DNA from: a virus
Virus record (IMG/VR): IMGVR_UViG_3300030331_000301
Location: 793 to 27,846 of that record
Strand: one strand, 5' to 3'
Length of the DNA: 27,054 bases
A program made the position numbers and the translations under genes. This document shows, piece by piece, positions 6,778 to 22,011 of this stretch (position 1 is the stretch's first letter; each line of letters starts with the position of its first letter). The notes beneath the pieces were generated by a model. That model did not search any database, had not been told where the DNA came from, and was given only the letters and a program-made list of their open reading frames with translations.

Positions 6778-9033
6778 ATGCCCAGATACAACGGTGGTTT
6801 TATAGGCCATGATGGTTTGGATGCACCTGATGCACCAACTATTGGTACACCTAGTGCAGGTTCAGCACAGGCAGATATAGCATTTACTGCAGGTGCTGCA
6901 GGAACAACTGCTACAACAGAATTTGTTGCTACAACTAATGATGGTATCGGAGCTACAGGTACTTCATCACCTATAACTATTACTGGTTTAACTAACGGTA
7001 CATCTTACACAGCTAGAGTGTATGCTAAAAATTCTCATGGTACATCTGCTGCTAGTGCAGCTAGTGCTAGTTTTACCCCTCTTGCAGAAGTTATTAGTAG
7101 TTTGTTTAGCACTCATTTATATACTGGAAATAGCTCTACACGAACAATTACCAACGACATTAATCTAAGTGGTAAAGGTGGTTTAGTTTGGATTAAAGAT
7201 AGAGATAGTAGCTCTAACTCAAATATACTTTATGACACTGAGCGTGGCGCTTATAAAGGTTTATTTTCAAATCTTACTAACGCTGAAGATACTAGAAGCA
7301 CTGGTTTAACTGGATTTACTTCTAGTGGTTTTACATTAGGGTCATTAGGTGCAGAAAACGGTTCTAGCAATGATAAAGTTTCTTGGACATGGAGGAAACA
7401 GGCTAAATATTTTGATATAGTTACGTATACTGGAAATGGTACTGCAGGTAGAACAATCAGTCATAACTTAGGTTCTATCCCAGGGATGATTATGATAAAA
7501 CAATATCAAGCAGGAGAAGCTAGATCTTGGTCTGTTTATCACAGAGGAATGGATTCTTCAGCACCAGAAGATTATTATATGAGATTAGAAACTACAGGAG
7601 CAAGATCAGATGATGTAGGTCAATGGAATGATACTGCTCCTACTTCTTCTGTATTTACTGTAGGCGATAGCACTTATGTTAATAGTAATGGAGAGTCCTA
7701 CGTAGCCTACCTATTTGCACATAATAATAATGATGGGGGTTTCGGACCTGACGGTGAAGATATTATCAAGTGTGGGAGTTTTACTGGTGTAGGTACTGGT
7801 GCGGTTAATGTTAATCTTGGTTTTGAGCCTCAGTGGATAATGGTTAAAAATGCTACTAGGTCAGAGGGATGGTTTATACAAGATTCAATGAGAGGTATGG
7901 CACATGGTGATTGGGAATATCTGTTAGCAAATGAAATTTCCGCAGCAGCAGGTTCTGCTACTAATAGGGTAGTTCCAACTGCTACTGGTTTTACAATAAA
8001 TAATAATGGTAGTAGTGCTTTTGGTCAATCTGGAGATACGTGTATCTACGTAGCAATACGTAGACCTGATCAAAGTACCCCTACTGCAGGAACTAGTGTG
8101 TTTCAAGCGCACACTTATACTGGAGATGGAAGCACAAGAAAGTACAGCTTAAATATAACTCCTGACATGGTTATAAACCTAAGTAGGAATATTTCTGGTG
8201 ACTCACCTTCTATCAACGATAGGGTAAGAGGTAGTGGTAAGGAAATGTATACAAGTGGTACTGGGGGTCAAGCTAGTTATCCAAGTCAAGGTTTGCAGTT
8301 AGATCATACTAATGCAATAGAAGTACAAGACTATAGAGACACTAATACTAAAAATTATCTTAATCTTTGTTGGAAAAGAGCTAAAGGCTATTTTGACATA
8401 GTCGCTTACTCAGGCACAGGAAGCAATAGAACTGTAACCCATAACCTTGGTGCTGCACCTGAAATGATGTGGATAAAACGTTATGATACAACAGGTTCTT
8501 GGATGGTATATCATAAAGGTTTAAATGGTGGCACTAATCCAGAGCAATATGTGTTCTATCTACATGATCCACAAGGCCCTGATCAATCATCTGGACCTTG
8601 GAATAATACAGCACCGACAAGTAGTGTGTTTAGTGTGGGTACTAACAACGCTGTTAATAACTCAAGCGGAGAATACGTAGCCTACCTTTTTGCAACAGTA
8701 GCAGGTGTGTCTAAGGTAGGAAGCTATACATCAACGATAGATGCCACTGGCAATGGTACAAATCAAACTATTGATTGTGGATTTACCAATGGTGCTAGAT
8801 TTGTGTTTATTAAACGCTCAGATGGTGCAGGAGACTGGGTAATTTTTGATTCAACAAGAGGGATAACAACTAACAGCGATCCACATTATAGATTAAATCA
8901 AACATATACAGAAGACTCAGATGCTTATGTTGATATAGAACCACATTCGTCAGGCTTTATAGTTAACCCAGGTTCAGTACATGTAGGGGGTGATACTCAG
9001 GGTCAGACATACGTCTTCTACGCAATCGCATAA
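6778..9033 (+). CDS. Receptor-binding candidate: fibronectin-III plus six ~100-residue fibre repeats
   Basis: A 751-residue protein. Residues about 16-102 form a fibronectin type III domain (APDAPTIGTPSAGSA start, SSPITITGLTNGTSYTARVYAKN core). The rest is six units of roughly 100 residues beginning near 111, 212, 329, 441, 539 and 645. A typical unit starts with a [T/S]YTGNGT strand, has an [S/T]HNLG-x-x-PGM-x-x-IK strand, a W-x-VYHRG strand and ends YVAYLFA or a variant. Units 1-3 and 4-6 resemble each other as triplets, so the array looks like a duplicated trio. This repeat resembles what I recall as DUF7483 of marine phages. The C-terminus ends YVFYAIA, as in the paralogue at 10264. Start ATG with AAAGGT upstream. 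Likely a host-surface recognition protein. Confidence 0.8.
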   Translation: MPRYNGGFIGHDGLDAPDAPTIGTPSAGSAQADIAFTAGAAGTTATTEFVATTNDGIGATGTSSPITITGLTNGTSYTARVYAKNSHGTSAASAASASFTPLAEVISSLFSTHLYTGNSSTRTITNDINLSGKGGLVWIKDRDSSSNSNILYDTERGAYKGLFSNLTNAEDTRSTGLTGFTSSGFTLGSLGAENGSSNDKVSWTWRKQAKYFDIVTYTGNGTAGRTISHNLGSIPGMIMIKQYQAGEARSWSVYHRGMDSSAPEDYYMRLETTGARSDDVGQWNDTAPTSSVFTVGDSTYVNSNGESYVAYLFAHNNNDGGFGPDGEDIIKCGSFTGVGTGAVNVNLGFEPQWIMVKNATRSEGWFIQDSMRGMAHGDWEYLLANEISAAAGSATNRVVPTATGFTINNNGSSAFGQSGDTCIYVAIRRPDQSTPTAGTSVFQAHTYTGDGSTRKYSLNITPDMVINLSRNISGDSPSINDRVRGSGKEMYTSGTGGQASYPSQGLQLDHTNAIEVQDYRDTNTKNYLNLCWKRAKGYFDIVAYSGTGSNRTVTHNLGAAPEMMWIKRYDTTGSWMVYHKGLNGGTNPEQYVFYLHDPQGPDQSSGPWNNTAPTSSVFSVGTNNAVNNSSGEYVAYLFATVAGVSKVGSYTSTIDATGNGTNQTIDCGFTNGARFVFIKRSDGAGDWVIFDSTRGITTNSDPHYRLNQTYTEDSDAYVDIEPHSSGFIVNPGSVHVGGDTQGQTYVFYAIA
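8374..8423 (+). repeat. 50-nt near-identical segment, copy 1
   Basis: It matches 12178-12227 in the paralogous fibre gene with 4 differences in 50 bases, all transitions, and a 20-base identical run (8404-8423). It encodes the KRA-x-GYFD-x-VAYSGTGS junction between repeat units 4 and 5. The flanks are much more diverged. Confidence 0.8.
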
Positions 9034-9052: not shown

Positions 9053-10264
9053 ATGTCTAACCGTAATGGCGTATGGTCACTATCTGCACATCTACAAGCC
9101 ATAGGAGATACTAACTGGCTTATGCCTCCAGGTGTTCCTACAAGTGTAAGTGCTACAGCAGGAAATGCACAAGCAACTGTAACTTTTACTGCACCCACCT
9201 TTGCAGGTGTACCAGGAACTATTACAGGATTTAAAGTAACTTCTAGTGAAGGAGAAACAGCAACTGGTTCATCATCACCTATAACTGTCACTGGTCTTAC
9301 AAACGGAACAGCATATACTTTTACTGTACAAGCACAAAACTCTACTGGTTTTGGTGGTTCTAGTTCTGCAAGTAGTTCAATATCACCTGCTCTTGGAAGA
9401 GGTATTTTTGGTGCAGGTTCTACAGGATCTAGGGTAAATACTATAGACTACGTAAGTATTGCAAGCACAGGTAATGCTACAGACTTTGGTGATCTTACTG
9501 TAGCAAGACAATGTTCCCCCTCTCTTATGTCATCAAGCACAAGATGTATTTTGGGGTCAGGTATAGAAGTTAGTGTTACTTATGCTACAACGCTTGATTA
9601 TGTGACAATAGCTAGCACTGGTAATGCTACTGATTTTGGAGATTTAACTGTTGGTAGGTATGGTCAAGCAGGTTGTTCTAATAGTACAAGAGCCGTCACA
9701 TTTAATGGAGATCAACAGTCAGGTACAGACAATACAATTGATTATGTAACCATTGCAAGTACAGGTAATGCTACAGATTTTGGTGATACGCAAACTACTG
9801 TTCGTAATCATGGTGCTTGTGCGTCTCCAACAAGAGGGCTAAGATGTGGAGGAAATGAGAGTGACGTTATAGAATACATTACGATTGGTACAACAGGAAA
9901 CTCTACAGACTTTGGTAATCTTACACAGTCGAGATACTCCCCTGCGTGTGCAGGTTCTAACACAAGAGCTTGCATGGCAGGGGGAGAACATAGCTCAAAA
10001 TTTAATATAATAGATTATGTAACAATAGCTTCAACAGGTAACGCTACTGACTTTGGCGATTTAACTGAGGCGCTTCAGGGTGCAGGTGGAACTAGTAATA
10101 GTACTCGTGCAGTTTATGGAGGTGGGGAAACTAGTAGCACTAATAGAAATAATATTGATTACATTACAATAGCAAGTACAGGTAATGCACAAGATTTTGG
10201 CGATCTGACACAAGGCCGAAGGGCTACGACATGTGGTGGAGATAGTCATGGAGGGATTGCATAG
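9053..10264 (+). CDS. Fibronectin-III plus six-repeat kelch-like propeller protein
   Basis: A 403-residue protein. Residues 1-24 carry a GVWSLSAHLQAI...NW motif also seen at the N-terminus of the next gene product, probably a virion anchor. Residues 27-112 form a fibronectin III domain (SSPITVTGLTNGTAYTFTVQAQN core). From residue 115 to the end are six repeats of 44-50 residues marked by IDYVTIASTGNATDFGDLT, starting at residues 131, 181, 229, 273, 320 and 368, each followed by R/L..., a Cys or Gly-rich turn and STR[A/C]. This layout predicts a six-bladed kelch-like beta propeller. Start ATG with AAAGGA 10 nt upstream. The TAG stop overlaps the GTG start of the next gene by one base. Ligand unknown; carbohydrate or surface binding is inferred. 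Confidence 0.8.
   Translation: MSNRNGVWSLSAHLQAIGDTNWLMPPGVPTSVSATAGNAQATVTFTAPTFAGVPGTITGFKVTSSEGETATGSSSPITVTGLTNGTAYTFTVQAQNSTGFGGSSSASSSISPALGRGIFGAGSTGSRVNTIDYVSIASTGNATDFGDLTVARQCSPSLMSSSTRCILGSGIEVSVTYATTLDYVTIASTGNATDFGDLTVGRYGQAGCSNSTRAVTFNGDQQSGTDNTIDYVTIASTGNATDFGDTQTTVRNHGACASPTRGLRCGGNESDVIEYITIGTTGNSTDFGNLTQSRYSPACAGSNTRACMAGGEHSSKFNIIDYVTIASTGNATDFGDLTEALQGAGGTSNSTRAVYGGGETSSTNRNNIDYITIASTGNAQDFGDLTQGRRATTCGGDSHGGIA
9443..10207 (+). repeat. Six tandem kelch-like repeats
   Basis: The six IDYVTIASTGNATDFGDLT-type blocks begin at 9443, 9593, 9737, 9869, 10010 and 10154, spaced 150, 144, 132, 141 and 144 bp, always a whole number of codons. The fourth copy is the most diverged (IEYITIGTTGNSTDFGNLT). 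The third has lost the final Leu-Thr pair (FGDTQTT). The bases differ at many silent sites, so the protein sequence is being kept. Confidence 0.85.
10250..10255 (+). promoter_or_regulatory. Shine-Dalgarno GGAGGG supporting a GTG start
   Basis: GGAGGG lies 8 nt before the GTG at 10264, inside the last codons of the kelch-like gene. It supports GTG as the start and coupling through the TAGTG overlap. Confidence 0.75.
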
Positions 10265-12801
10265 TGTCAACTAGAGATTATACAGCTAACGTTATATCTG
10301 CTACTCCAGTAGTACCTGATGGTAACTTTAAAGATAGCAAAGCATCAGGTGTGTGGGATATTAATGAAGCACTAGATCTTATCAAAGGTGGTAACTGGCC
10401 TAACGCAGCTAACCTTAACCCTGCTGCTTTTGTTGATGGTTTGTTTCAGACTCATTTGTATACTGGTACAGGCTCTTCTGCACAAACGATTACAAACAAC
10501 ATTGATCTAACCAAAGGTGGGCTGGTTTGGGTAAAACATAGGTCTTTATCAGCTAGTCACATTTTAACTGATAGTGAGCGAGGTGTCCAGTATTTAAGAT
10601 CAGACACAAATGATGCACAAATAAACCAATCACTGATAACAAATTTTGTATCAACAGGTTTTACTGCAAATGGCGACAGTGTAAATTATGCTAATGATAA
10701 TGGCGAAGATTATGTCTCTTGGACCTTTAGGAAGCAGCCTAAATTTTTTGATATTGTGACGTATACAGGGAATGGAAGTTCTAGCCAAACGATAAGTCAT
10801 AGTCTTGGGTCAGTTCCTGGCATGATAATTGTAAAGCGTTATGATGGCACATCAACTGAAGGTTGGGAAGTGTACCATAGAGGGGTTTCTTTTAATGCAG
10901 GAAATCGTTTATTCTTAAACCTTACTAATGCAGTAGCTGTCGGCTCAGGGGCTTTTGCATCTGCACCAACTTCAACAGAGTTTTACGTTGGTCCTGACAG
11001 TGGCACTAACGCCTCTAGTGGCTCATACATAGCCTACCTATTCGCACACAATGCTGACTCAACAGACTCTGTGCAAACATCACTACAAGGTAAAACCTTA
11101 TCAAACTTAGGAAGTGCTTTTGATGGTAGTTATCCAATTACAGAAATAAATGATGGAGTTGCTGAAACAAATAATGCAAACAGTATAGGATATGTTTCCA
11201 ATGCTGACATGGACATTTCCGTTGACTATGGTTCAGCCGTTGTTGCAAACGCATATTATATTGCTCCCCAAGGAGATCAAGGTGGTTCAGTATATAATAC
11301 ACCAACAGCTTTTACTGCATATGGTTCTAATGATGGTTCTTCTTGGACAAGTTTAGCAAGTTTTTCAAGTATTAGTGGATTTGCGGCAGGTTCTTTTAAA
11401 GAGTTCACTTTTAGTAATACAACAGCTTATAGATACTACAGGCTTGAAATTACAGCTTCATCTGCATCAGGAGTGTCTATAAGTGAATGGGAACTTGGTC
11501 TTAAACCTGATGCATCAGAAGTAGGTGACTTTGGTGAGGCTGGAGATTCTAATATTATTAAGTGTGGGGGTTACACTGGTAATGGTTCTACGGATGGCAC
11601 AGAAGTAAACCTTGGATTTGAACCGCAATGGTTAATGATAAAGGCTACTTCGGTAGCAAGAGATTGGCATATATTCGATGCTATTCGAGGCACTGTTGTT
11701 GGTGGTAATGATTCTTTACTACAAGCTAATTTAAGTGATGCTGAGTCATCAGGCACAGAGTTTGTTTCATTTACCCCGACAGGTTTTAAGCTTAACTCAA
11801 CAGATAATAAAGTAAACGGTAACAATCACACCTACATCTTTATGGCAATAAGACGTGGTGGTATGCAAACCCCAACTTCAGCGTCTGATGTGTTTGGTGT
11901 TAATTACACTTACACATATGATGTTAATGGTGCTACTGGCGGTAGTTCAGCACAACTTATAGGTTATATAGGCGAACCTGCTGATCTTAATATGCAAGGT
12001 TATAGAAGCGGTAGTAGTTTTAATGCTACTGTTTACGATAGATTGCGAAACAATAAGTATTTTATTACTAATAGTAATCCAGCAGAAGCATCTGTTTCGG
12101 GTAATTTTTGGGATAATATGGCAGGTTTTAGAGAAGTTGCTTCTGCTCAAGATACAACCATGATTAGTTGGACTTGGAAAAGAGCTAGAGGTTATTTTGA
12201 CATGGTTGCTTACTCAGGCACAGGAAGTGCAAGAACCGTAAGTCATAACCTTGGTGCAGTGCCTGAGATGATTTGGGTTAAAAGAAGAGATTCAGGAGGC
12301 TCTTGGGGAGTTTGGCATAAAGATCTTACCTCTGGATACTATTTAAGTATTAACACTAGCGATGCAGAAGGCTCAAATAGTAATGTTTTTACTACCACTG
12401 ATCCTACTGCAACACAGTTTTCAGTAGGTAGTCAAGGTTTTACTAACAACTCTGGCGGAACATTCATGGCCTACCTTTTTGCTACCGTAACAGGTGTATC
12501 GAAGGTGGGAAGCTACTCTGGGAATGGTGGCAGTCAGACTATTGATTGTGGTTTTAGTGGCGGTACTGGTGCTAGGTTTGTTTTAATCAAAAGGACAGAT
12601 CAAGCGGCTGATTGGAAAGTTTATGATACAGTACGAGGTATTGTTGCAGGTAATGACCCTGAATTAGCTTTAAACTCAAATGCAGCAGAGGTTACAGGAT
12701 ATGATTATATAGACCCACATTCTTCTGGGTTTATTATACCAGTTGATAATTTTAATACAAATGCATCAGGTGGCTCATACATCTTCTACGCAATAGCATA
12801 G
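10264..12801 (+). CDS. Receptor-binding candidate: six fibre repeats with inserted discoidin-like domain
   Basis: An 845-residue paralogue of the 6778 gene product, starting at GTG. The N-terminus differs: residues 28-46 hold a GVWDINEALDLI...NWP anchor motif like that of the kelch-like protein, and there is no fibronectin domain. Six ~100-residue units start near 60, 161, 429, 543, 644 and 745, with the same landmarks (LYTGTG, SWTFRKQPKFFDIVTYTGNG, SHSLGSVPGM, W-x-VYHRG, YIAYLFA; end YIFYAIA). Between units 2 and 3, residues about 275-412 form an extra domain with F5/8 type C (discoidin) hallmarks: NDG-x-AE, D-x-SVDYGS, FTAYGSNDGSSWTSLASF and YRYYRLEITAS. Such domains bind glycans or lipids. 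Role in host-surface recognition is inferred from domains and position. Confidence 0.8.
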   Translation: MSTRDYTANVISATPVVPDGNFKDSKASGVWDINEALDLIKGGNWPNAANLNPAAFVDGLFQTHLYTGTGSSAQTITNNIDLTKGGLVWVKHRSLSASHILTDSERGVQYLRSDTNDAQINQSLITNFVSTGFTANGDSVNYANDNGEDYVSWTFRKQPKFFDIVTYTGNGSSSQTISHSLGSVPGMIIVKRYDGTSTEGWEVYHRGVSFNAGNRLFLNLTNAVAVGSGAFASAPTSTEFYVGPDSGTNASSGSYIAYLFAHNADSTDSVQTSLQGKTLSNLGSAFDGSYPITEINDGVAETNNANSIGYVSNADMDISVDYGSAVVANAYYIAPQGDQGGSVYNTPTAFTAYGSNDGSSWTSLASFSSISGFAAGSFKEFTFSNTTAYRYYRLEITASSASGVSISEWELGLKPDASEVGDFGEAGDSNIIKCGGYTGNGSTDGTEVNLGFEPQWLMIKATSVARDWHIFDAIRGTVVGGNDSLLQANLSDAESSGTEFVSFTPTGFKLNSTDNKVNGNNHTYIFMAIRRGGMQTPTSASDVFGVNYTYTYDVNGATGGSSAQLIGYIGEPADLNMQGYRSGSSFNATVYDRLRNNKYFITNSNPAEASVSGNFWDNMAGFREVASAQDTTMISWTWKRARGYFDMVAYSGTGSARTVSHNLGAVPEMIWVKRRDSGGSWGVWHKDLTSGYYLSINTSDAEGSNSNVFTTTDPTATQFSVGSQGFTNNSGGTFMAYLFATVTGVSKVGSYSGNGGSQTIDCGFSGGTGARFVLIKRTDQAADWKVYDTVRGIVAGNDPELALNSNAAEVTGYDYIDPHSSGFIIPVDNFNTNASGGSYIFYAIA
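11086..11499 (+). other. F5/8 type C (discoidin)-like domain insertion
   Basis: It encodes residues 275-412. The order is as in the family: N-terminal G-x-AFDG...NDG strand, DISVDYGSAVVANAYYI, then AYGSNDGSSWTSLASF, a KEFTFSN strand and the closing YRYYRLEITAS...ISEWEL. It is absent from the paralogue at 6778-9033, where the flanking AHN and DxIIKCG segments are separated by only about 12 residues. Confidence 0.7.
12178..12227 (+). repeat. 50-nt near-identical segment, copy 2
   Basis: Partner of 8374-8423 (46 of 50 bases the same). It lies at the same place in the protein repeat array, the junction of units 4 and 5. Confidence 0.8.
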
Positions 12802-14162: not shown

Positions 14163-16040
14163 ATGGCAATTTCAGAAAATTCACCAGATATAAGACTTGC
14201 AAGAAAGTTCTTAGGCTTTGAAGGACCACCTCAACAGCTTGATAATTTTTTACAAGCTAATCCTGCAGCAGCTGCACGTATGGGTAAATACAGACAAGCC
14301 ATGATGAGTATGAGTGGTATGCGTGTAGGTGCTCAAGCAGGCACTGCTGGAACATCTCTTGAAGACTTTCAAAAGATGCAGCAAGATCTTATTGTTCAAA
14401 CTATGAAACCTGCCCCTGCTACTGTAAGCCAGATCACACCTCAAGCAGGTCAAACTATTCCATCTACTGCAGGTCAGGCAACTGCGACAGCTCCTACAAC
14501 TCCTGCTGCTACAGTGGGATCAGTACAGCAAATGCCTACACCTACAGCAATGACTGCTGGAACTATGACTGCTGATACTGCTGCTACAGATGTGGCTACA
14601 GAGGCTGCTAAATTAACTGCTGCTCAAGGAGCTATAAGACCTGGTGCAATAATTCCTGTAGAACAACAAACAACTAGTGCTGTTTCTAATGTAAAAGAAG
14701 CTCAAGGAACAGCAATACAAATAGACAGTCCAGAAGCTAGAAAAATAAAAACAGATCCTGTAACTGGTGAAAGTGAAATAATATCTGGTGCTGCTAATGC
14801 TCAAACTGCGGCTGCATTTACTGAAGCAAGGCAACATGCTGAAGCTACACCTACTAAACAAGCCACAGTTCAAGGTCAGTTAGAGGGATTGATGGCTCAG
14901 TTCGAGAGTGGTGCTACACCCTCTTGGGCTGCTGGAGCCATGAGAGCTGCAACCAGTGCTATGATTTCTAGAGGTTTAGGTGCATCTTCGATAGCAGGAC
15001 AAGCTATTGTACAGGCAGCTATGGAATCTGCGTTACCAATTGCACAAATGGATGCACAGGTAATGGCTCAGTTTGAAGCACAGAACTTATCTAACAGACA
15101 ACAACGTGCAATGCTTGCTGCACAACAACGTGCTGCATTTATAGGTCAAGAGTTTGATCAAGCATTTCAAGCTCGTGTGCAAAATGCTTCTCGTCTAGCT
15201 GACATAGCTAATAGAAACTTTACAGCTGAACAACAGATAGCATTAGAGGATTCTCGTGCTCTTAACACAATGGAGTTATCTAATCTATCTAATAGCCAAG
15301 CCATAGTAATGGCAGAGGCTGCTGCTTTATCTCAACTTGACATAGCAAATTTATCAAATAGACAACAAACTGCTGTACAAAATGCTCAAAACTTTTTGCA
15401 AATGGATATGACAAACCTTGCAAATACACAGCAAACTGAGTTGTTTAAGACTCAACAAAACATACAAGCTTTGTTTACAGATCAAGCTGCAAGAAATGCT
15501 GCAGAACAATTTAACGCTACAAGTGAAAATCAAACTAACCAGTTCTTTGCTAATCTTTCTGCCCAAGCATCACAGTTTAATGCAGCCCAACAGAATGCCA
15601 TGAATCAGTTTGATGTAAATGCTACCAATGCCATGCGTCAGTTTAACTCAGAGGTACAACAACAACGTGATCTGTTTAATGCACAAAATGGTTTAGTCAT
15701 TGCTCAAGCTAACGCACAGTGGAGACAGAATCTAGCAACAGTTAATACTGCAGCAGAGAATCAAGCAAACATGGACTTTGCTAAAACTATAAATGCTATG
15801 TCCATGAAAAACTTAGATGAGATATGGCAACGTGAACGAGACATTATGTCGTTTGCATTTACTGCTGATCAGTCTGCAATGGATAGGGCATTACAAATTA
15901 TAATGGGTGATAAAGAACTTGAGATAGCTAGAGAAAAACTTAACAATGTTAAGAAAACAGAAAATACACAGCTTGCCATGAGATTCTTATTTGGCTCAAG
16001 TCCAACAGGTATTCTTGGTGGAGTACTAGGAGCGTTATAG
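14163..16040 (+). CDS. Gln/Asn/Ala-rich virion protein with 11-residue helical repeats
   Basis: A 625-residue protein, probably an internal or core virion protein. Residues 1-75 are mixed with a charged helix start. Residues about 83-180 are Pro/Thr/Ala-rich and likely flexible. From about residue 235 to 600 the protein is helical and extremely rich in Gln, Asn and Ala. NLSNRQQ-type motifs occur at residues 308, 374, 396 and 418 (22-residue steps, with weaker matches at 330 and 352). Phenylalanines at 450, 461, 472, 483, 494 and 505 are exactly 11 residues apart (QFNA motifs). That is the signature of an 11-residue (hendecad) coiled coil. The C-terminus is a small hydrophobic Gly-rich tail (GILGGVLGAL). 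ATG with AAGGGA 6 nt upstream. Ejection or core role is inferred from the following lysozyme and giant gene. Confidence 0.75.
   Translation: MAISENSPDIRLARKFLGFEGPPQQLDNFLQANPAAAARMGKYRQAMMSMSGMRVGAQAGTAGTSLEDFQKMQQDLIVQTMKPAPATVSQITPQAGQTIPSTAGQATATAPTTPAATVGSVQQMPTPTAMTAGTMTADTAATDVATEAAKLTAAQGAIRPGAIIPVEQQTTSAVSNVKEAQGTAIQIDSPEARKIKTDPVTGESEIISGAANAQTAAAFTEARQHAEATPTKQATVQGQLEGLMAQFESGATPSWAAGAMRAATSAMISRGLGASSIAGQAIVQAAMESALPIAQMDAQVMAQFEAQNLSNRQQRAMLAAQQRAAFIGQEFDQAFQARVQNASRLADIANRNFTAEQQIALEDSRALNTMELSNLSNSQAIVMAEAAALSQLDIANLSNRQQTAVQNAQNFLQMDMTNLANTQQTELFKTQQNIQALFTDQAARNAAEQFNATSENQTNQFFANLSAQASQFNAAQQNAMNQFDVNATNAMRQFNSEVQQQRDLFNAQNGLVIAQANAQWRQNLATVNTAAENQANMDFAKTINAMSMKNLDEIWQRERDIMSFAFTADQSAMDRALQIIMGDKELEIAREKLNNVKKTENTQLAMRFLFGSSPTGILGGVLGAL
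15084..15683 (+). repeat. Region coding for 11/22-residue periodic repeats
   Basis: It encodes residues 308-507. The first half repeats with a 22-residue step (motifs at 308, 374, 396, 418), the second half with an 11-residue step (Phe at 450, 461, 472, 483, 494, 505). The two halves are out of phase by 9 residues around 419-450. Confidence 0.75.
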
Positions 16041-16055
16041 GTTAAGGAATAAAAT

Positions 16056-16877
16056 ATGTCTGAATTAAATTATAAAATTAATTACACAAGTATGATTGAT
16101 GCTCTACAAATGGGTGGCACTGCAGGTTTAGAATCTCTTAGATCTTCTAGAACTACTAGAGGTCTTGGTACAAAATTAGATACTGAAAAGTATGTAAAAG
16201 ATGAGGAGGATAAACCATCTCTACAAAAAAGAATTTTAGATAGTATGGATAAAGTTAAAAAAGAAAATAAAACTATGGCGGAGAGGATGAAAGAATTTGG
16301 TGTTGAAAAAGATCCTGTAACTGGAGAGCTAGTAAGGACAGATCCACCAATTAAAAAACCAACTGAGATTTCTAAAACATCTGGTATAACTGTAGACTCA
16401 GCCTATGAAACTTCTTTTAAATTAATGGATGATTTGAGGAAAGATTATAATTTAACTACAGAACAAGCTGCAGCTTTTGTTGGAAACCTTTGGTATGAAA
16501 CTGGTGGGTTTACTGCCTTTCAAGAGATTGATCCAAAAGTAGGAAGAGGTGGTTTAGGATTTGCTCAATGGACAGCATCAAGAAGAGTTACTTTTGAGGA
16601 ATATCTTAGACAACAGGGTAATTTAAGTGCAGACGATTATGGTGCAAACTATGGGTATTTAAAGAAAGAATTAAATTCAACAGAGAAAAAAGTTTTAAAG
16701 ACTTTACGAGGTCAAGTTGCAAGATCTGGAGAAAATGTAGTTGATATAGAAGAGGCAACAGAAATAATATCTGATGTCTTTTTTAGACCTAAAGAAGAAA
16801 CAGCACGTAAAGATAGAAGAATTGATGCTGCAAAAGATATTTTACAAAGGTACAAAGAGGACAGGAGTCTTAAATAA
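16056..16877 (+). CDS. Virion-associated lysozyme (phage tail lysozyme family domain)
   Basis: A 273-residue protein. Residues 1-110 are charged, Lys/Glu-rich and probably a virion-binding arm. Residues about 113-265 match the phage tail lysozyme pattern (Phage_lysozyme_2-like): NLTTEQAAAFVGNLWYETGGF with a candidate catalytic Glu148, GRGGLGFAQWTASRR at 163-177, EEYLRQQG, and a C-terminal YGYLKKEL...EATEIISDVFFRP segment. Such domains cut peptidoglycan locally during DNA entry rather than lysing the cell. Neighbours are candidate ejection proteins, consistent with a T7 gp16-like activity placed in its own gene. ATG with AAGGAA upstream. The TAA overlaps the next ATG by one base. Domain assignment is good; the catalytic residue is inferred. 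Confidence 0.8.
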   Translation: MSELNYKINYTSMIDALQMGGTAGLESLRSSRTTRGLGTKLDTEKYVKDEEDKPSLQKRILDSMDKVKKENKTMAERMKEFGVEKDPVTGELVRTDPPIKKPTEISKTSGITVDSAYETSFKLMDDLRKDYNLTTEQAAAFVGNLWYETGGFTAFQEIDPKVGRGGLGFAQWTASRRVTFEEYLRQQGNLSADDYGANYGYLKKELNSTEKKVLKTLRGQVARSGENVVDIEEATEIISDVFFRPKEETARKDRRIDAAKDILQRYKEDRSLK

Positions 16878-17400: not shown

Positions 17401-18363
17401 ATGGGTGTTGCTAGAGGAATACTTAATTATTTAGAAGATGTAGATGCAGCTCGGGCTGTAGAAAAGAAAAAACAAGATGAGCGAGAAGCTCTAGCTTTTG
17501 AGTTAGAGATGAAGTATGGTAGTAACTTTTTAGCTCCCTCTAAAAAAGGTAAAGATACAGGTACATCTTCTAGGACAGCTGTCGCTGCATTGATGAAAAC
17601 ATACAATGTTAGTGAAGAAGCACTTGCGCCTATCTTAGCTAGTGGTGATAAAACAGCGGCACCTAGATTATTAAATATATTAGAGAAACAGAAATTAAAA
17701 TATGGAGGTGAAGGATTAATTTTACCTGAAGATGTTGTATCAGGTATAATTGAAGATGCTGTGATAACTCAGTCAGCTACAAGGGAAATAGATTTTTCTA
17801 GGCTAGAAGACTTTATTGGTCGTGAGATGGATTCATTGTATAAGGATCTCTTAAAGTCACAGTCAAAAGATCCTGGAGCTGTGTTCTTTCCTGAACCTGT
17901 TTTTGTGGAGAGACCATCTTTAGAAGATCTAGATAGGTTTGAGAAGAGAGCAATTGCAGGTAATCTAACTCGTGCTCAAGATGAATTAAATATGGTTATG
18001 AATAAAATAGCTGAGTTTAATTCTTTAGATGAAGGTGGTAATCTTACAACAGATCAGATAGCTGAACGTGCTTGGTTGACTGACAGAAAAGTTGAAATTG
18101 AAACTGCTGTAAAATCTTTTGAAGATGATAACGTAGTGCCAATAGCAGGTTTATATGGAACAGCTTATACTAGAACATTACAACAACTCTATCCTAAGTA
18201 TGAAGATGCTTATCTTAATCCTGCACTATTAAATGCCTCTAGTAAAGATATTACTGTTCCTAATAGAGCAGTTGCTGAAAGTTTAGCTGCAGCTGGAATA
18301 TTAAAAGAAGGCGATGTTGTAATTAATGGGCAGACTGGTAAGAAAATTAGAATTGGTGGCTAA
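17401..18363 (+). CDS. Unrecognised protein in the ejection-protein block
   Basis: A 320-residue, mostly helical, charged protein with no known motif. Residues 1-40 are a Lys/Glu-rich helix (ARAVEKKKQDEREALAFELEM), then a Lys/Gly/Ser linker, a helical core (residues 60-225, with LLNILEKQKLKYGGEGLI and FSRLEDFIGREMDSLYKDLL), and a C-terminal part ending VINGQTGKKIRIGG, which looks like a small beta hairpin. GAGGATG lies 5 nt before the ATG. It ends directly against the next gene (TAA then ATG with no spacer). The position between lysozyme and giant protein suggests a virion interior component. Confidence 0.7.
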   Translation: MGVARGILNYLEDVDAARAVEKKKQDEREALAFELEMKYGSNFLAPSKKGKDTGTSSRTAVAALMKTYNVSEEALAPILASGDKTAAPRLLNILEKQKLKYGGEGLILPEDVVSGIIEDAVITQSATREIDFSRLEDFIGREMDSLYKDLLKSQSKDPGAVFFPEPVFVERPSLEDLDRFEKRAIAGNLTRAQDELNMVMNKIAEFNSLDEGGNLTTDQIAERAWLTDRKVEIETAVKSFEDDNVVPIAGLYGTAYTRTLQQLYPKYEDAYLNPALLNASSKDITVPNRAVAESLAAAGILKEGDVVINGQTGKKIRIGG

Positions 18364-21300
18364 ATGGCAGAGCAATTTGAAGATCCAATAACTATAGGTG
18401 ATAAAAATTTTGAACCACCTATAGTTACAGAAGGAGACTTTGAAGAACCTATTGAACTAGACAGAGTTACTACTCAGTCTCCCATAGTTCCTCAAGGTAT
18501 TGACAACTCTTCCTATGTTGATCTAGAAAAAATTTTTGCAGACTATGGTCGTAAGCTAACTAAAGAAGACATCTTAAATGATGATCGTCTCATGGAAGTT
18601 ATTCGTTCTAGTTTAGAAGCTAGATTTACTCCAAGTGGTGTGCTCACTAAAGCTAGACGTGGTGTCACTGGTTTAGCAGGTGGTGCCATAGGTGGATTAT
18701 CTTCTCAAGACTACCGTGAGATGAGTGACAATAAAGTTTTTGAGGTCTGGCAGAACTATCAAAGATCTTTTGCTGGGGGTCAGACAGTTACGACAGGTAA
18801 CGAGATAGCCTATGGTATGTCATCAGATGATAATACTAAGGTAAAACTTGGGGCAGGTTATCTTTTATTCGACCAAATGGACAATGCTTTTACAGGCGAA
18901 GGTTCTTGGTCAGAGATGGGTGATGCTATTTGGGACTACAGTAAGTCTGCTGTTTATGACCCATCAACAATACTTTCTTTAGGTTTAGGTAAACTATTTG
19001 GTTTTGGTGCAACTAAAGCAAGCGGTGCAGTAGCACGTAACCTTATGGTCAAGGCTTATCAAGAACAGGTTAAAAGAGGTGTAGGTAAACAGACAGCTCT
19101 AGCCAGTGTAGGCAAAGCAGTTGCCACTACTCTACCATATGCCACAGCAGATGCTATAATAGGTGCAGGTGTAGATGTATTGTATCAAACCCAACTTATT
19201 GATGTAGGTGTTCAGAAAGAATATTCAGCTGCTCAAACAGCGATTGCATCGGCAGGTGCTCTTGTTGTTATACCTACATTAAAAACAGTAGGTGCATCTA
19301 TCAAAGAGTTTCGTAAAAGTGAGATAGCACCACAGTTTTTAGCATATAAAGAGTTCGATGAGAACGTTCTTAAAATAAGTTTAGAAGATGCTAAGAAAGC
19401 ACTTCGTAAACGAGTTAAAAAGAAAGTTCTCATTGATTCCGTTGACGAGAACTTTGGTTTAATAAAAGGCAATACAAAAGATTTTTTAGCTTGGCCTAAG
19501 TTTAGAGAAAAGGCAAAAGAACGTGTTGCAGTTCGTGGTGAAAAATATACAGATGACGAAGTGACAAATGCTTTCTTTCAATACTTCTTTTTAGGAAATC
19601 CAGATGGTAAAACAAAAGGTTATTATCAAGCTTTAAAAGAAGCAGGGTTTGTTGTTCACGAATCTATGTTAGAAGAAGTAAATAAAAAGACTGGTAGAAG
19701 CATTGGCATATCAGGTGTATTTGGTCAAAGTATTAAATTTCTTTCAGTACCTAAAGTTAAACAGATAGTTAAAAAGTTTGAGAAAGATACTGGATATAAA
19801 CTAAGGTTTATGGATGAGGACGGTATTGTTATAACTGGAGATAACGTTACACCAGTAAGTCTTGCCTCACACTTTGCACGTCAAGCAAGTCTTGCAGGTG
19901 AAAGCTTGTGGCTACCATCTCACCTTAGTCGTTTAGAAAAAGCTGGAGTAGATATTAAAGATGCTGTAGCAATCGCAGGTGGTAATGCTAAACTAGCTGA
20001 TGAACCTAAACGATTACAATATACCATGTCTGTTTATAAAAGACTTCTTACATCTCACTTAGCTACAACTGGTGCAAACGTAAAAGGTTTTACACAGCTT
20101 GTAAGTATTAACAGTCTTGCAGATTTTTTTACAGCTGCTGTTAATCTTGGTCAAGCACGTTTAGCTAAACGTGCAGGTGATATAGAGTCTGCAGAAAAAT
20201 TTATGAATAGATCCTATGGCTCTGCAGTTGGTGCTATCCGTAGAGGAGTTGATGTATTATCTCCAGACATATCTATGGAGTACGCTGACAAAATACTTTC
20301 CTTAAATCCAGAGGTTGCTTCAAAATTATTTAGAGATGTTTCTGGTGATGGTGGTGTGCGTGATGCTTTATCTGATTTTAATTTAGATAAGATTAAACGT
20401 AAACCAGGCAGTGTTCTTGAAGGATCAGAAGAAGCAGAGATGCTAGCGTTTAGAGGCATTGATGCTGTAACCAAAGGTGCTCAAACATTAACCATGGTTA
20501 GGCTACAAGATGAGCTAACTAAGATATGGTCTTTTGGTACGAACCTAAATCAGGCAATCATGCGTGAATATGGCATGACATTTGAGAAGTTTTTTGATCC
20601 TGCTAAAGCTGCTGACACTGCACTTGAAATGTCATCTGATAGATTTCAAAAAAATGTTTTAGATAAAGCAGTGTTTCGTACACTAAGAGAAACAGCTTCT
20701 GTCAATTGGTCCACACTTCCAGGAAAAGAATCTTTAATCTCTGCTAGAACTTGGGCAAAGAGTGTTGAAGCATTTACAAACAAAACTCCTTTGGGTTTTA
20801 TAGTACCTTTTGGTAGCTTCTTAAATACTACAGTAGCAACCATGGCTGACTTAATTGGTATAAATGCCATGAGGTTTGCAGTTAAAAAGATGACAGGTCA
20901 AGAGTTAGACTTTGCAACTCGTGAGGGTGCAGAGGCACTAGGTAAAATGGCAGCAGGTTGGTCTCTAATTGCAACAGGTATTTATGTAACAGGTGGTGCT
21001 AAAGATAGAATAGAAAACAACCTAGCTTACAACCAAGATATGCAACCTGATGGTAGTATTCAAGATAGAAAATATGATTGGCCTGTCTCAACTATGAGAC
21101 TCTTATCTCAGATAGGTGCACATGGCTTAGGTGTAGATAATAATTGGGAATGGAGTGAAGTTCCTACAGATCTTTGGAAAGAATTAGCAGTTCAAGTTGG
21201 TGGACAAGCTGTAAGAGATCTAGATGCTACGGGTCAAACTATTGTTTACGCAAGTGAACAAGCTCTAGAAGGTAATTTTCAACCTTTAGAAGATATGTTT

Positions 21301-22011
21301 GGTGGGGCCACAGCTAGAATTACTCAAGGTGCAACAAGACCACTAGATCCTATCAATCAAGTTTGGGGTATGGTATCTGATGTTAATCTAAATCCTGATA
21401 GAAGACAGGGTGCAGAAACTCAGAATCAAATGCTTCGTTATATTGATAATGTACTTGGTAATACAAAAGAGGGTATGCCAAGACGTGCTACTCCAACAAG
21501 AGGTAGACAGTTTGTCCCAGATATAGGAAAACAAATACTTGGAAATAGAACACTTCAAGTTCCTAATCTAATAGAGAAGATGATGAATGCTGCAGGTAGA
21601 CCGTACTGGAAGTCAATACGTTTTGATGGACCTGCAGAGATTAAAAATAAAATGGACGCATTGGCAGCTCCGTTCTTTGAGACAAGAGCTTTAGAGTATT
21701 TAAAAAAGAATCCAGATTATTTTAGATTACCGTTAAAAGATAAACAAAAGATATTAGATACAATATCTACAAAAGTTAAACAAGATGTAACCGACATTGT
21801 AAAAACAGGTATGCCTAAAAGTATAAATGTTTTAAGAACTCTTTCAGGTAAAAATAAAAAAGAAGTTAGAAACGTCATGAAGTTTCTAGGTATCGAAGGT
21901 AGTATAGAGGACTTATTAAAAGAGGAGGATGGTCTCCAACAACTGTTACGAATACAAAGTCTAGTTGATAGCTACGATGATATATTCTATGGAGATCTAG
22001 ACTTAGACTAA
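18364..22011 (+). CDS. Large internal virion / DNA-ejection protein candidate
   Basis: A 1215-residue protein, the largest in the window and the last of the + strand run. The N-terminal 40 residues are acidic with a repeated [F]-E-x-PI motif (FEDPITIG, FEPPIVTE, FEEPIEL), perhaps a peptide that docks a partner. The body is mainly helical with hydrophobic patches: AGGAIGGLSS near residue 106, LPYATADAIIGAGVDVLY near 260, GFIVPFGSF near 811 and AAGWSLIATGIYVTGG near 865. Giant helical proteins with such patches at the end of a podovirus virion operon are usually ejected with the DNA to make a channel (T7 gp16 role). No lysozyme domain is visible here; it is carried by the separate gene at 16056. 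Role inferred from size, place and composition. Confidence 0.65.
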   Translation: MAEQFEDPITIGDKNFEPPIVTEGDFEEPIELDRVTTQSPIVPQGIDNSSYVDLEKIFADYGRKLTKEDILNDDRLMEVIRSSLEARFTPSGVLTKARRGVTGLAGGAIGGLSSQDYREMSDNKVFEVWQNYQRSFAGGQTVTTGNEIAYGMSSDDNTKVKLGAGYLLFDQMDNAFTGEGSWSEMGDAIWDYSKSAVYDPSTILSLGLGKLFGFGATKASGAVARNLMVKAYQEQVKRGVGKQTALASVGKAVATTLPYATADAIIGAGVDVLYQTQLIDVGVQKEYSAAQTAIASAGALVVIPTLKTVGASIKEFRKSEIAPQFLAYKEFDENVLKISLEDAKKALRKRVKKKVLIDSVDENFGLIKGNTKDFLAWPKFREKAKERVAVRGEKYTDDEVTNAFFQYFFLGNPDGKTKGYYQALKEAGFVVHESMLEEVNKKTGRSIGISGVFGQSIKFLSVPKVKQIVKKFEKDTGYKLRFMDEDGIVITGDNVTPVSLASHFARQASLAGESLWLPSHLSRLEKAGVDIKDAVAIAGGNAKLADEPKRLQYTMSVYKRLLTSHLATTGANVKGFTQLVSINSLADFFTAAVNLGQARLAKRAGDIESAEKFMNRSYGSAVGAIRRGVDVLSPDISMEYADKILSLNPEVASKLFRDVSGDGGVRDALSDFNLDKIKRKPGSVLEGSEEAEMLAFRGIDAVTKGAQTLTMVRLQDELTKIWSFGTNLNQAIMREYGMTFEKFFDPAKAADTALEMSSDRFQKNVLDKAVFRTLRETASVNWSTLPGKESLISARTWAKSVEAFTNKTPLGFIVPFGSFLNTTVATMADLIGINAMRFAVKKMTGQELDFATREGAEALGKMAAGWSLIATGIYVTGGAKDRIENNLAYNQDMQPDGSIQDRKYDWPVSTMRLLSQIGAHGLGVDNNWEWSEVPTDLWKELAVQVGGQAVRDLDATGQTIVYASEQALEGNFQPLEDMFGGATARITQGATRPLDPINQVWGMVSDVNLNPDRRQGAETQNQMLRYIDNVLGNTKEGMPRRATPTRGRQFVPDIGKQILGNRTLQVPNLIEKMMNAAGRPYWKSIRFDGPAEIKNKMDALAAPFFETRALEYLKKNPDYFRLPLKDKQKILDTISTKVKQDVTDIVKTGMPKSINVLRTLSGKNKKEVRNVMKFLGIEGSIEDLLKEEDGLQQLLRIQSLVDSYDDIFYGDLDLD

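Follow-up and report, generated by a model that had tools for sequence, protein, structure and literature searches.

An unannotated podovirus protein family with a phase-locked hendecad array and a possible role in DNA ejection

The array gene and its neighbors

We have analyzed a stretch of viral DNA of 27,054 nucleotides, the window, which comes from a contig of an HMO-2011-type podovirus. The protein of interest contains a long array of 11-residue (hendecad) repeats, and its layout and neighbors are collected in Table 1. The N-terminal part preceding the array is longer by hundreds of residues in some relatives and includes a LysM domain in one, and one clade of relatives has an extra Peptidase_S74 domain at the C terminus. 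The members of the S74-bearing clade are L090, L092, L095, L271, L286, L316 and L338, of which L095 is the one that also has the N-terminal LysM domain.

Table 1. The array protein, its segments and the surrounding genes (positions in the window)
Feature	Positions	Strand	Residues	Description
DUF6127 protein, 84 aa	13898-14152	+		directly upstream of the array gene; one likely membrane segment, read from the sequence; candidate holin
Array protein, 625 aa	14163-16040	+		ORF containing the array
N-terminal part	14163-14837	+	1-225	low complexity, Thr/Pro/Ala/Gln-rich; length varies between relatives
Domain preceding the array	14838-15041	+	226-293	conserved, helical; RGL.SS..G.A..QA.MESALPI; AF2 pLDDT mostly >80
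Hendecad array	15042-15713	+	294-517	starts at the A in PIAQ.DA, ends at the N in NAQWRQ; 223 residue steps
22-residue-unit section	15042-15503	+	294-447	unit of two hendecads
Phe section	15504-15701	+	448-513	Q-F-N-A hendecads; Asn register as in residues 294-447
C-terminal part	15714-16037	+	518-625	conserved, helical, starting AQWRQ; Gly-rich hydrophobic tail
Phage_lysozyme2 (tail lysozyme) protein	16056-16877	+		directly downstream of the array gene
PIPG protein, 173 aa	16877-17398	+		same position in distant relatives
320-aa protein	17401-18363	+		same position in relatives
1215-aa protein	18364-22011	+		ends the block, at the position of T7 gp16

The array protein is matched by no model in Pfam, PHROG or NCBIfam. 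Its close relatives are found in Roseobacter phage CRP-2 (61% identity) and in HMO-2011 (gp25, 55%), and its distant relatives in SAR11, Rhizobium, Vibrio, Aeromonas and Pseudoalteromonas phages. HMO-2011 gp25 and its relatives, a group that extends to SAR116 phages, are direct homologues encoded at the same gene position, with arrays of different length. None of the homologues has a functional annotation; they are hypothetical proteins or unannotated, apart from one in the podovirus ctYwJ313 (L006:2360-4951, MW202701.1) that is labelled 'huntingtin', probably a misannotation caused by its richness in Gln. In related phages, genes neighboring the homologues also bear odd labels, for example 'dimodular nonribosomal peptide synthetase'. 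No entry of the PDB matched by sequence, and the best fold match there had an E value of 2.2. A fold search of BFVD gave only three matches at E < 0.001, with low TM-scores and 25-62% sequence identity, and they look like members of the same family. We suggest regarding the array protein as a new family, so far without annotation, that carries a phase-locked hendecad array. The 86 kb IMG/VR contig 3300030330_000562 carries two different homologues (L013 and L065), one of them identical to that of the window, and may be a chimera assembled from two phages.

Internal virion proteins of podoviruses are encoded in the late gene block, and the array gene sits among late virion genes, as do the genes of the T7 and P22 ejection proteins. 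The gene order is conserved even in distant relatives: the array gene is followed, often after one or a few other genes, by those of the PIPG protein of about 170 residues, a protein of about 320-800 residues and one of about 800-1200 residues. In the window the intervening gene is that of the tail lysozyme. The PIPG protein has an invariant PIPG near its N terminus, and found no match in the family libraries searched. The 1215-residue protein showed no detectable homology to T7 gp16 in an hhalign comparison with the single T7 sequence. The large proteins of the putative fiber genes at 6778-9033 and 10264-12801 have similar segments (W.VYH.G, APTS..F.VG and YVAYLFA), suggesting a duplication.

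CRP-1 and CRP-2 are phages that we take to be included in a published study of RCA phages. Short tails were reported there for the seven RCA phages (PMC6918029). Our literature searches found no virion proteomics or other experimental virion evidence for the phage group.

The 11-residue register within the array

An earlier note on this DNA drew attention to positions 15084-15683, which encode residues 308-507 of the ORF, as a sequence of strict 11-residue periodicity. The Phe residues on which it relied are indeed found at 450, 461, 472, 483, 494 and 505, in exact steps of 11, and a register of six Phe residues was obtained in none of 200,000 random placements of the seven Phe residues of this segment. 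A second element, a 22-residue grid of NLSNRQQ-like motifs from 308 to 418, is also real. NLSN or NLAN occurs at 308, 374, 396 and 418, and the grid holds because degenerate copies fill the positions at 330 (EFDQAFQ) and 352 (NFTAEQQ). The consensus of the 22-residue unit is A-[LIV]-x-N-A-x-x-[FLY]-A-Q-[LMV]-x-[LM]-A-N-L-[SN]-N-[RKE]-Q-Q-[AT].

Self-identity of residues 300-520, compared with shuffled sequences, gave z = 3.9 at a lag of 11, 7.5 at 22, 3.6 at 33 and 4.5 at 44, with no signal at a lag of 7 (z = -0.5). There is also no period of 7/2. A heptad coiled coil is ruled out by these data, and the repeat is hendecad in character as had been proposed.

The same register is traced by a ladder of Asn residues, at 308, 341, 352, 374, 396, 407, 418, 451, 473, 495, 506 and 517. 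Asp or Glu substitutes at 330, 363, 385, 440 and 484, and the ladder is broken at A319, K429 and F462. The earlier note had placed a phase slip between 419 and 450, splitting the array into two rods. This we do not find. The Asn register runs without interruption through these residues, and thirteen steps of 11 from residue 308 lead to N451, which adjoins F450 on its C-terminal side. What changes, at about residue 447, is the hydrophobic partner of the Asn, from a Leu that follows it to a Phe that precedes it; the residue type is switched, but the phase is not.

Fourier analysis bore out one part of the expectation of a peak at 11/3 residues. Such a peak is seen for Phe within residues 420-520, but the strongest peak for the whole array is at 11/4. 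This is the fifth harmonic, reflecting the Asn and Gln ladders between two hydrophobic seams, and a peak at 11/5 is an alias of the second harmonic. The dominance of the 11/4 peak goes with a helix that has two seams rather than a single face.

Array lengths across the family

Is the 11-residue step retained in the homologues? We took array length as the separation of two anchors that hardly ever change, the A in PIAQ.DA and the N in NA.WRR, which were located by profile alignments; in the window these are residues 294 and 517. Arrays were drawn from viral contigs, phages and MAGs, and only distinct arrays were counted. The first set comprised 274 arrays of 18 lengths between 113 and 773 residues, and every one of them leaves a remainder of 3 on division by 11. 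Among the moduli from 5 to 23, 11 is the only one to give a constant remainder over this set. Once the rule had been stated we fetched a further 71 distinct arrays, of which 70 follow it. The exception (L359) has an insertion of one residue next to the C-terminal anchor. In total 344 of 345 arrays, now of 24 lengths over the same range, are at 3 mod 11, and the step is thus conserved as the earlier note had predicted, with no loss in close homologues. Relatives with as little as ~25-30% identity still obey the rule. The lengths track 11, and not 22.

These totals are of sequences, which need not be independent events. When a tree was made from the flanks, with the array excluded, it required at least 47 changes of length, although this was a fast tree and the number is approximate; the 24 distinct lengths by themselves require at least 23. 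Outside the array, the N- and C-terminal parts vary in length without any mod-11 rule, and therefore the rule is a constraint on the array segment. From these alignments we regard the constraint on 11-residue phase as well supported.

Length itself varies even among close relatives: between proteins whose flanks share 80% identity or more, there are differences of 11, 66, 88, 187, 220 or 330 residues. In one pair, L149 and L143, with arrays of 443 and 773 residues and flanks that are 96% identical, the difference is 330 residues, or ~50 nm, which argues against a ruler of fixed length or a length tuned to the cell envelope. As a straight helix an array of 773 residues would measure ~116 nm, far beyond the envelope. 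The two sections that meet near residue 447 vary in length independently of each other, and for this reason parallel, in-register copies are favored over a single intramolecular hairpin.

Changes in whole units might arise from recombination between DNA repeats alone, with no structural constraint. Duplication of a 110-residue block, i.e., ten hendecads or five distinct 22-mers, is indeed how the long arrays grew, with lag-110 identity of up to 0.56. Nevertheless, no DNA tandem repeat was found in the array of the window, so that a mutational bias of this kind looks insufficient as the cause. The rule moreover persists in the most divergent relatives, and a single indel of any other length has been accepted in all the arrays while the flanks take such indels freely. 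We consider recombination alone to be a very improbable explanation. The long arrays are those of L140, L142, L143, L146, L172 and L174 (553-773 residues) and of L346 and L350 (531), and many array lengths lie on two ladders, 113+110k and 311+110k.

Helical geometry and proposed architecture

The composition of the array was taken from a non-redundant subset of 128 arrays, with 32,027 residues. These contain one Pro and 1.2% Gly, compared with 4.6% Pro and 8.4% Gly elsewhere in these proteins. AF2 models of two subfamilies are mostly helical with no strands, in agreement with the helix of the earlier note, although global confidence is low (pTM 0.31 and 0.28) and the helix breaks inside the array fall in low-confidence stretches. 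One of the breaks is short, covering 451-454 where confidence is modest, and would allow a possible joint there without a change of phase. The array is thus predicted to be helix.

An alternative fold with Asn ladders is the beta-solenoid, here with turns of 22 residues, and the array has both such a ladder and strong periods of 2.2 and 2.75 residues. The near absence of Gly and Pro, the high content of Ala and Gln, the lack of strands in both AF2 models and lengths that follow 11 and not 22 make this the least credible of the readings that we considered.

When hydrophobicity is placed on an 11/3 helical wheel, the first harmonic is 0.005 and the second is 0.082, and shuffled sequences give a second harmonic of no more than 0.004. 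The seam axis is identical in all seven length groups, at 148-155/328-335 degrees. Of the arcs between the seams, one is rich in charge, the overall charged side lying near 64 degrees, and the opposite one is mostly uncharged Gln, Asn, Ser and Ala, with the amide side near 256 degrees. A tube lined by Gln and Asn had been suggested in the earlier note, and the Gln/Asn-rich side of the helix is consistent with a lumen. The asymmetry of charge and amide is weak in the S74-bearing clade. Two opposite hydrophobic seams are the pattern expected of a helix that forms part of the wall of a large barrel. Among our controls, which are few, the heptad part of the phiX174 H tube has a second harmonic of 0.054 against a first of 0.017, the three hendecads of H have 0.102 against 0.110, and the trimeric Sf6 tail needle, at 0.137 against 0.138, lacks the excess of second over first.

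A single amphipathic helix is ruled out by the near-zero first harmonic. Repeats of 11 and 22 residues are typical of proteins of the apolipoprotein, synuclein and LEA type, and together with the hydrophobic, Gly-rich C-terminal tail they could indicate an 11/3 amphipathic helix that binds to membrane surfaces. Unlike lipid-binding helices of this kind, the array has no strong net 11/3 moment; its charge is low, and a phase lock over hundreds of residues would not be expected to be needed. We regard this reading as very unlikely.

The main rival is a variable external fiber, in which the array would be the shaft of a trimeric coiled coil, folded in some relatives by the S74 domain. An 11-residue phase would keep a three-stranded shaft straight and leave its length free. 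Peptidase_S74 is a chaperone known from trimeric fibers, the array gene directly follows tail-fiber genes, and shafts may vary as the arrays do, including between close relatives. However, the first harmonic of the array is near zero, unlike that of the trimeric needle and not dominant as a single core seam would make it, and the protein of the window has no S74 domain. The C-terminal part is conserved and not variable as a receptor-binding tip would be, and the PHROG entry best matched by an S74-bearing relative, through its S74 part, is a 'DNA ejection protein'. On balance a fiber appears unlikely, if the least so of the alternatives.

We propose that the array forms a parallel, in-register, homo-oligomeric helical tube, and that the protein is most likely an ejection (pilot) protein of a podovirus ejectosome that would form part of a DNA conduit. 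From the sequences, the AF2 models and the analogy with known systems we give this a probability of about one half. Weighing against it are the low global confidence and helix breaks of the AF2 models, the lack of homology to phiX174 H and to T7 and Sf6 ejection proteins in the single-sequence comparisons, array lengths that are not tuned to the envelope, and the S74-bearing clade with its weak asymmetry of charge and amide. The parallel oligomer, the tube and the lumen side are inferred. The array would be a single long, in-phase alpha-helical stretch of 11/3 geometry. Many identical chains would pack in parallel and in register, each contacting its neighbors on two roughly opposite sides, so making the wall of a straight tube or barrel with the charged arc outward and the mostly uncharged Gln/Asn/Ser/Ala arc toward the lumen. 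The protein would be stored in the virion and released through the tail, and would then assemble as part of a conduit carrying DNA across the envelope, like the phiX174 H tube. A pilot or ejection role is considered most likely because of the gene block, the relatives with LysM and S74 domains, and the parallels with phiX174 H and the decameric tube of Sf6 gp12.

The protein might instead be a structural rod or scaffold in the core of the capsid, stacked on the portal and not itself the path of the DNA. Gene position and phase constraint would then be the same, and T7 core proteins do occupy the portal before ejection (PMC11784390). However, straight arrays of 443-773 residues (66-116 nm) would exceed a head of ~60 nm, a size that is assumed from that of the genome. 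A core rod seems to us improbable.

A more specific form of the proposed tube, which we put forward only tentatively, is an alpha-helical tube that assembles by itself and has an amide lining; its length would be free to vary, from ~17 to more than 100 nm, and the 11-residue phase alone would be strictly selected. If this is correct it would to our knowledge be the longest natural class of alpha-helical barrel, and tailed phages would have arrived by convergence at a counterpart of the phiX174 H tube. The conduits of short-tailed phages through the cell envelope are known in detail from a few models only. In this widespread, unannotated family a single helical architecture occurs in natural length variants of 113 to 773 residues, and very long in-register alpha-helical assemblies could be obtained from it. 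Is a Gln/Asn-lined helical tube a general, convergent solution to the movement of DNA? The family allows the question to be asked.

How does the array protein compare with known ejection proteins? T7 gp14, gp15 and gp16 are encoded at a comparable late-gene position, and after ejection a helical channel composed of gp14 is found at the outer membrane (PMC11784390). That channel is built of antiparallel hairpins, and neither gp14 nor gp15 has a hendecad array. Sf6 gp12 and the P22 DNA-injection protein gp20 share the class of podovirus ejection protein with a tube stem; gp12 is a decamer, and its helical tube stem is reported to match the structure of phiX H (PMC4755594). No clear lag-11 signal was found in T7 gp14 and gp15 or in Sf6 gp11-13 (z ≤ 1.7). 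Comparison by hhalign gave no homology of the array protein to T7 gp14 or gp15, to Sf6 gp12 or to phiX174 H (probability <1%), each taken as a single sequence, so that distant homology could be missed.

The phiX174 pilot protein H comes from a tailless, single-stranded DNA phage, in which it acts in DNA delivery. Its decameric structure has been solved, whereas the array is known here from sequence. H has three hendecads followed by heptads, and the array has ~10 to 70 hendecads and no heptads. Nevertheless, the H tube (residues 151-271) is a continuous helix with hendecads and a Gln/Asn-rich lumen, where 18 of 23 residues are N, Q or R and where mutations affect DNA delivery (PMC7354561). Its heptad part has the two-seam pattern of the array, and H is self-similar at a lag of 11, with z = 4.0.
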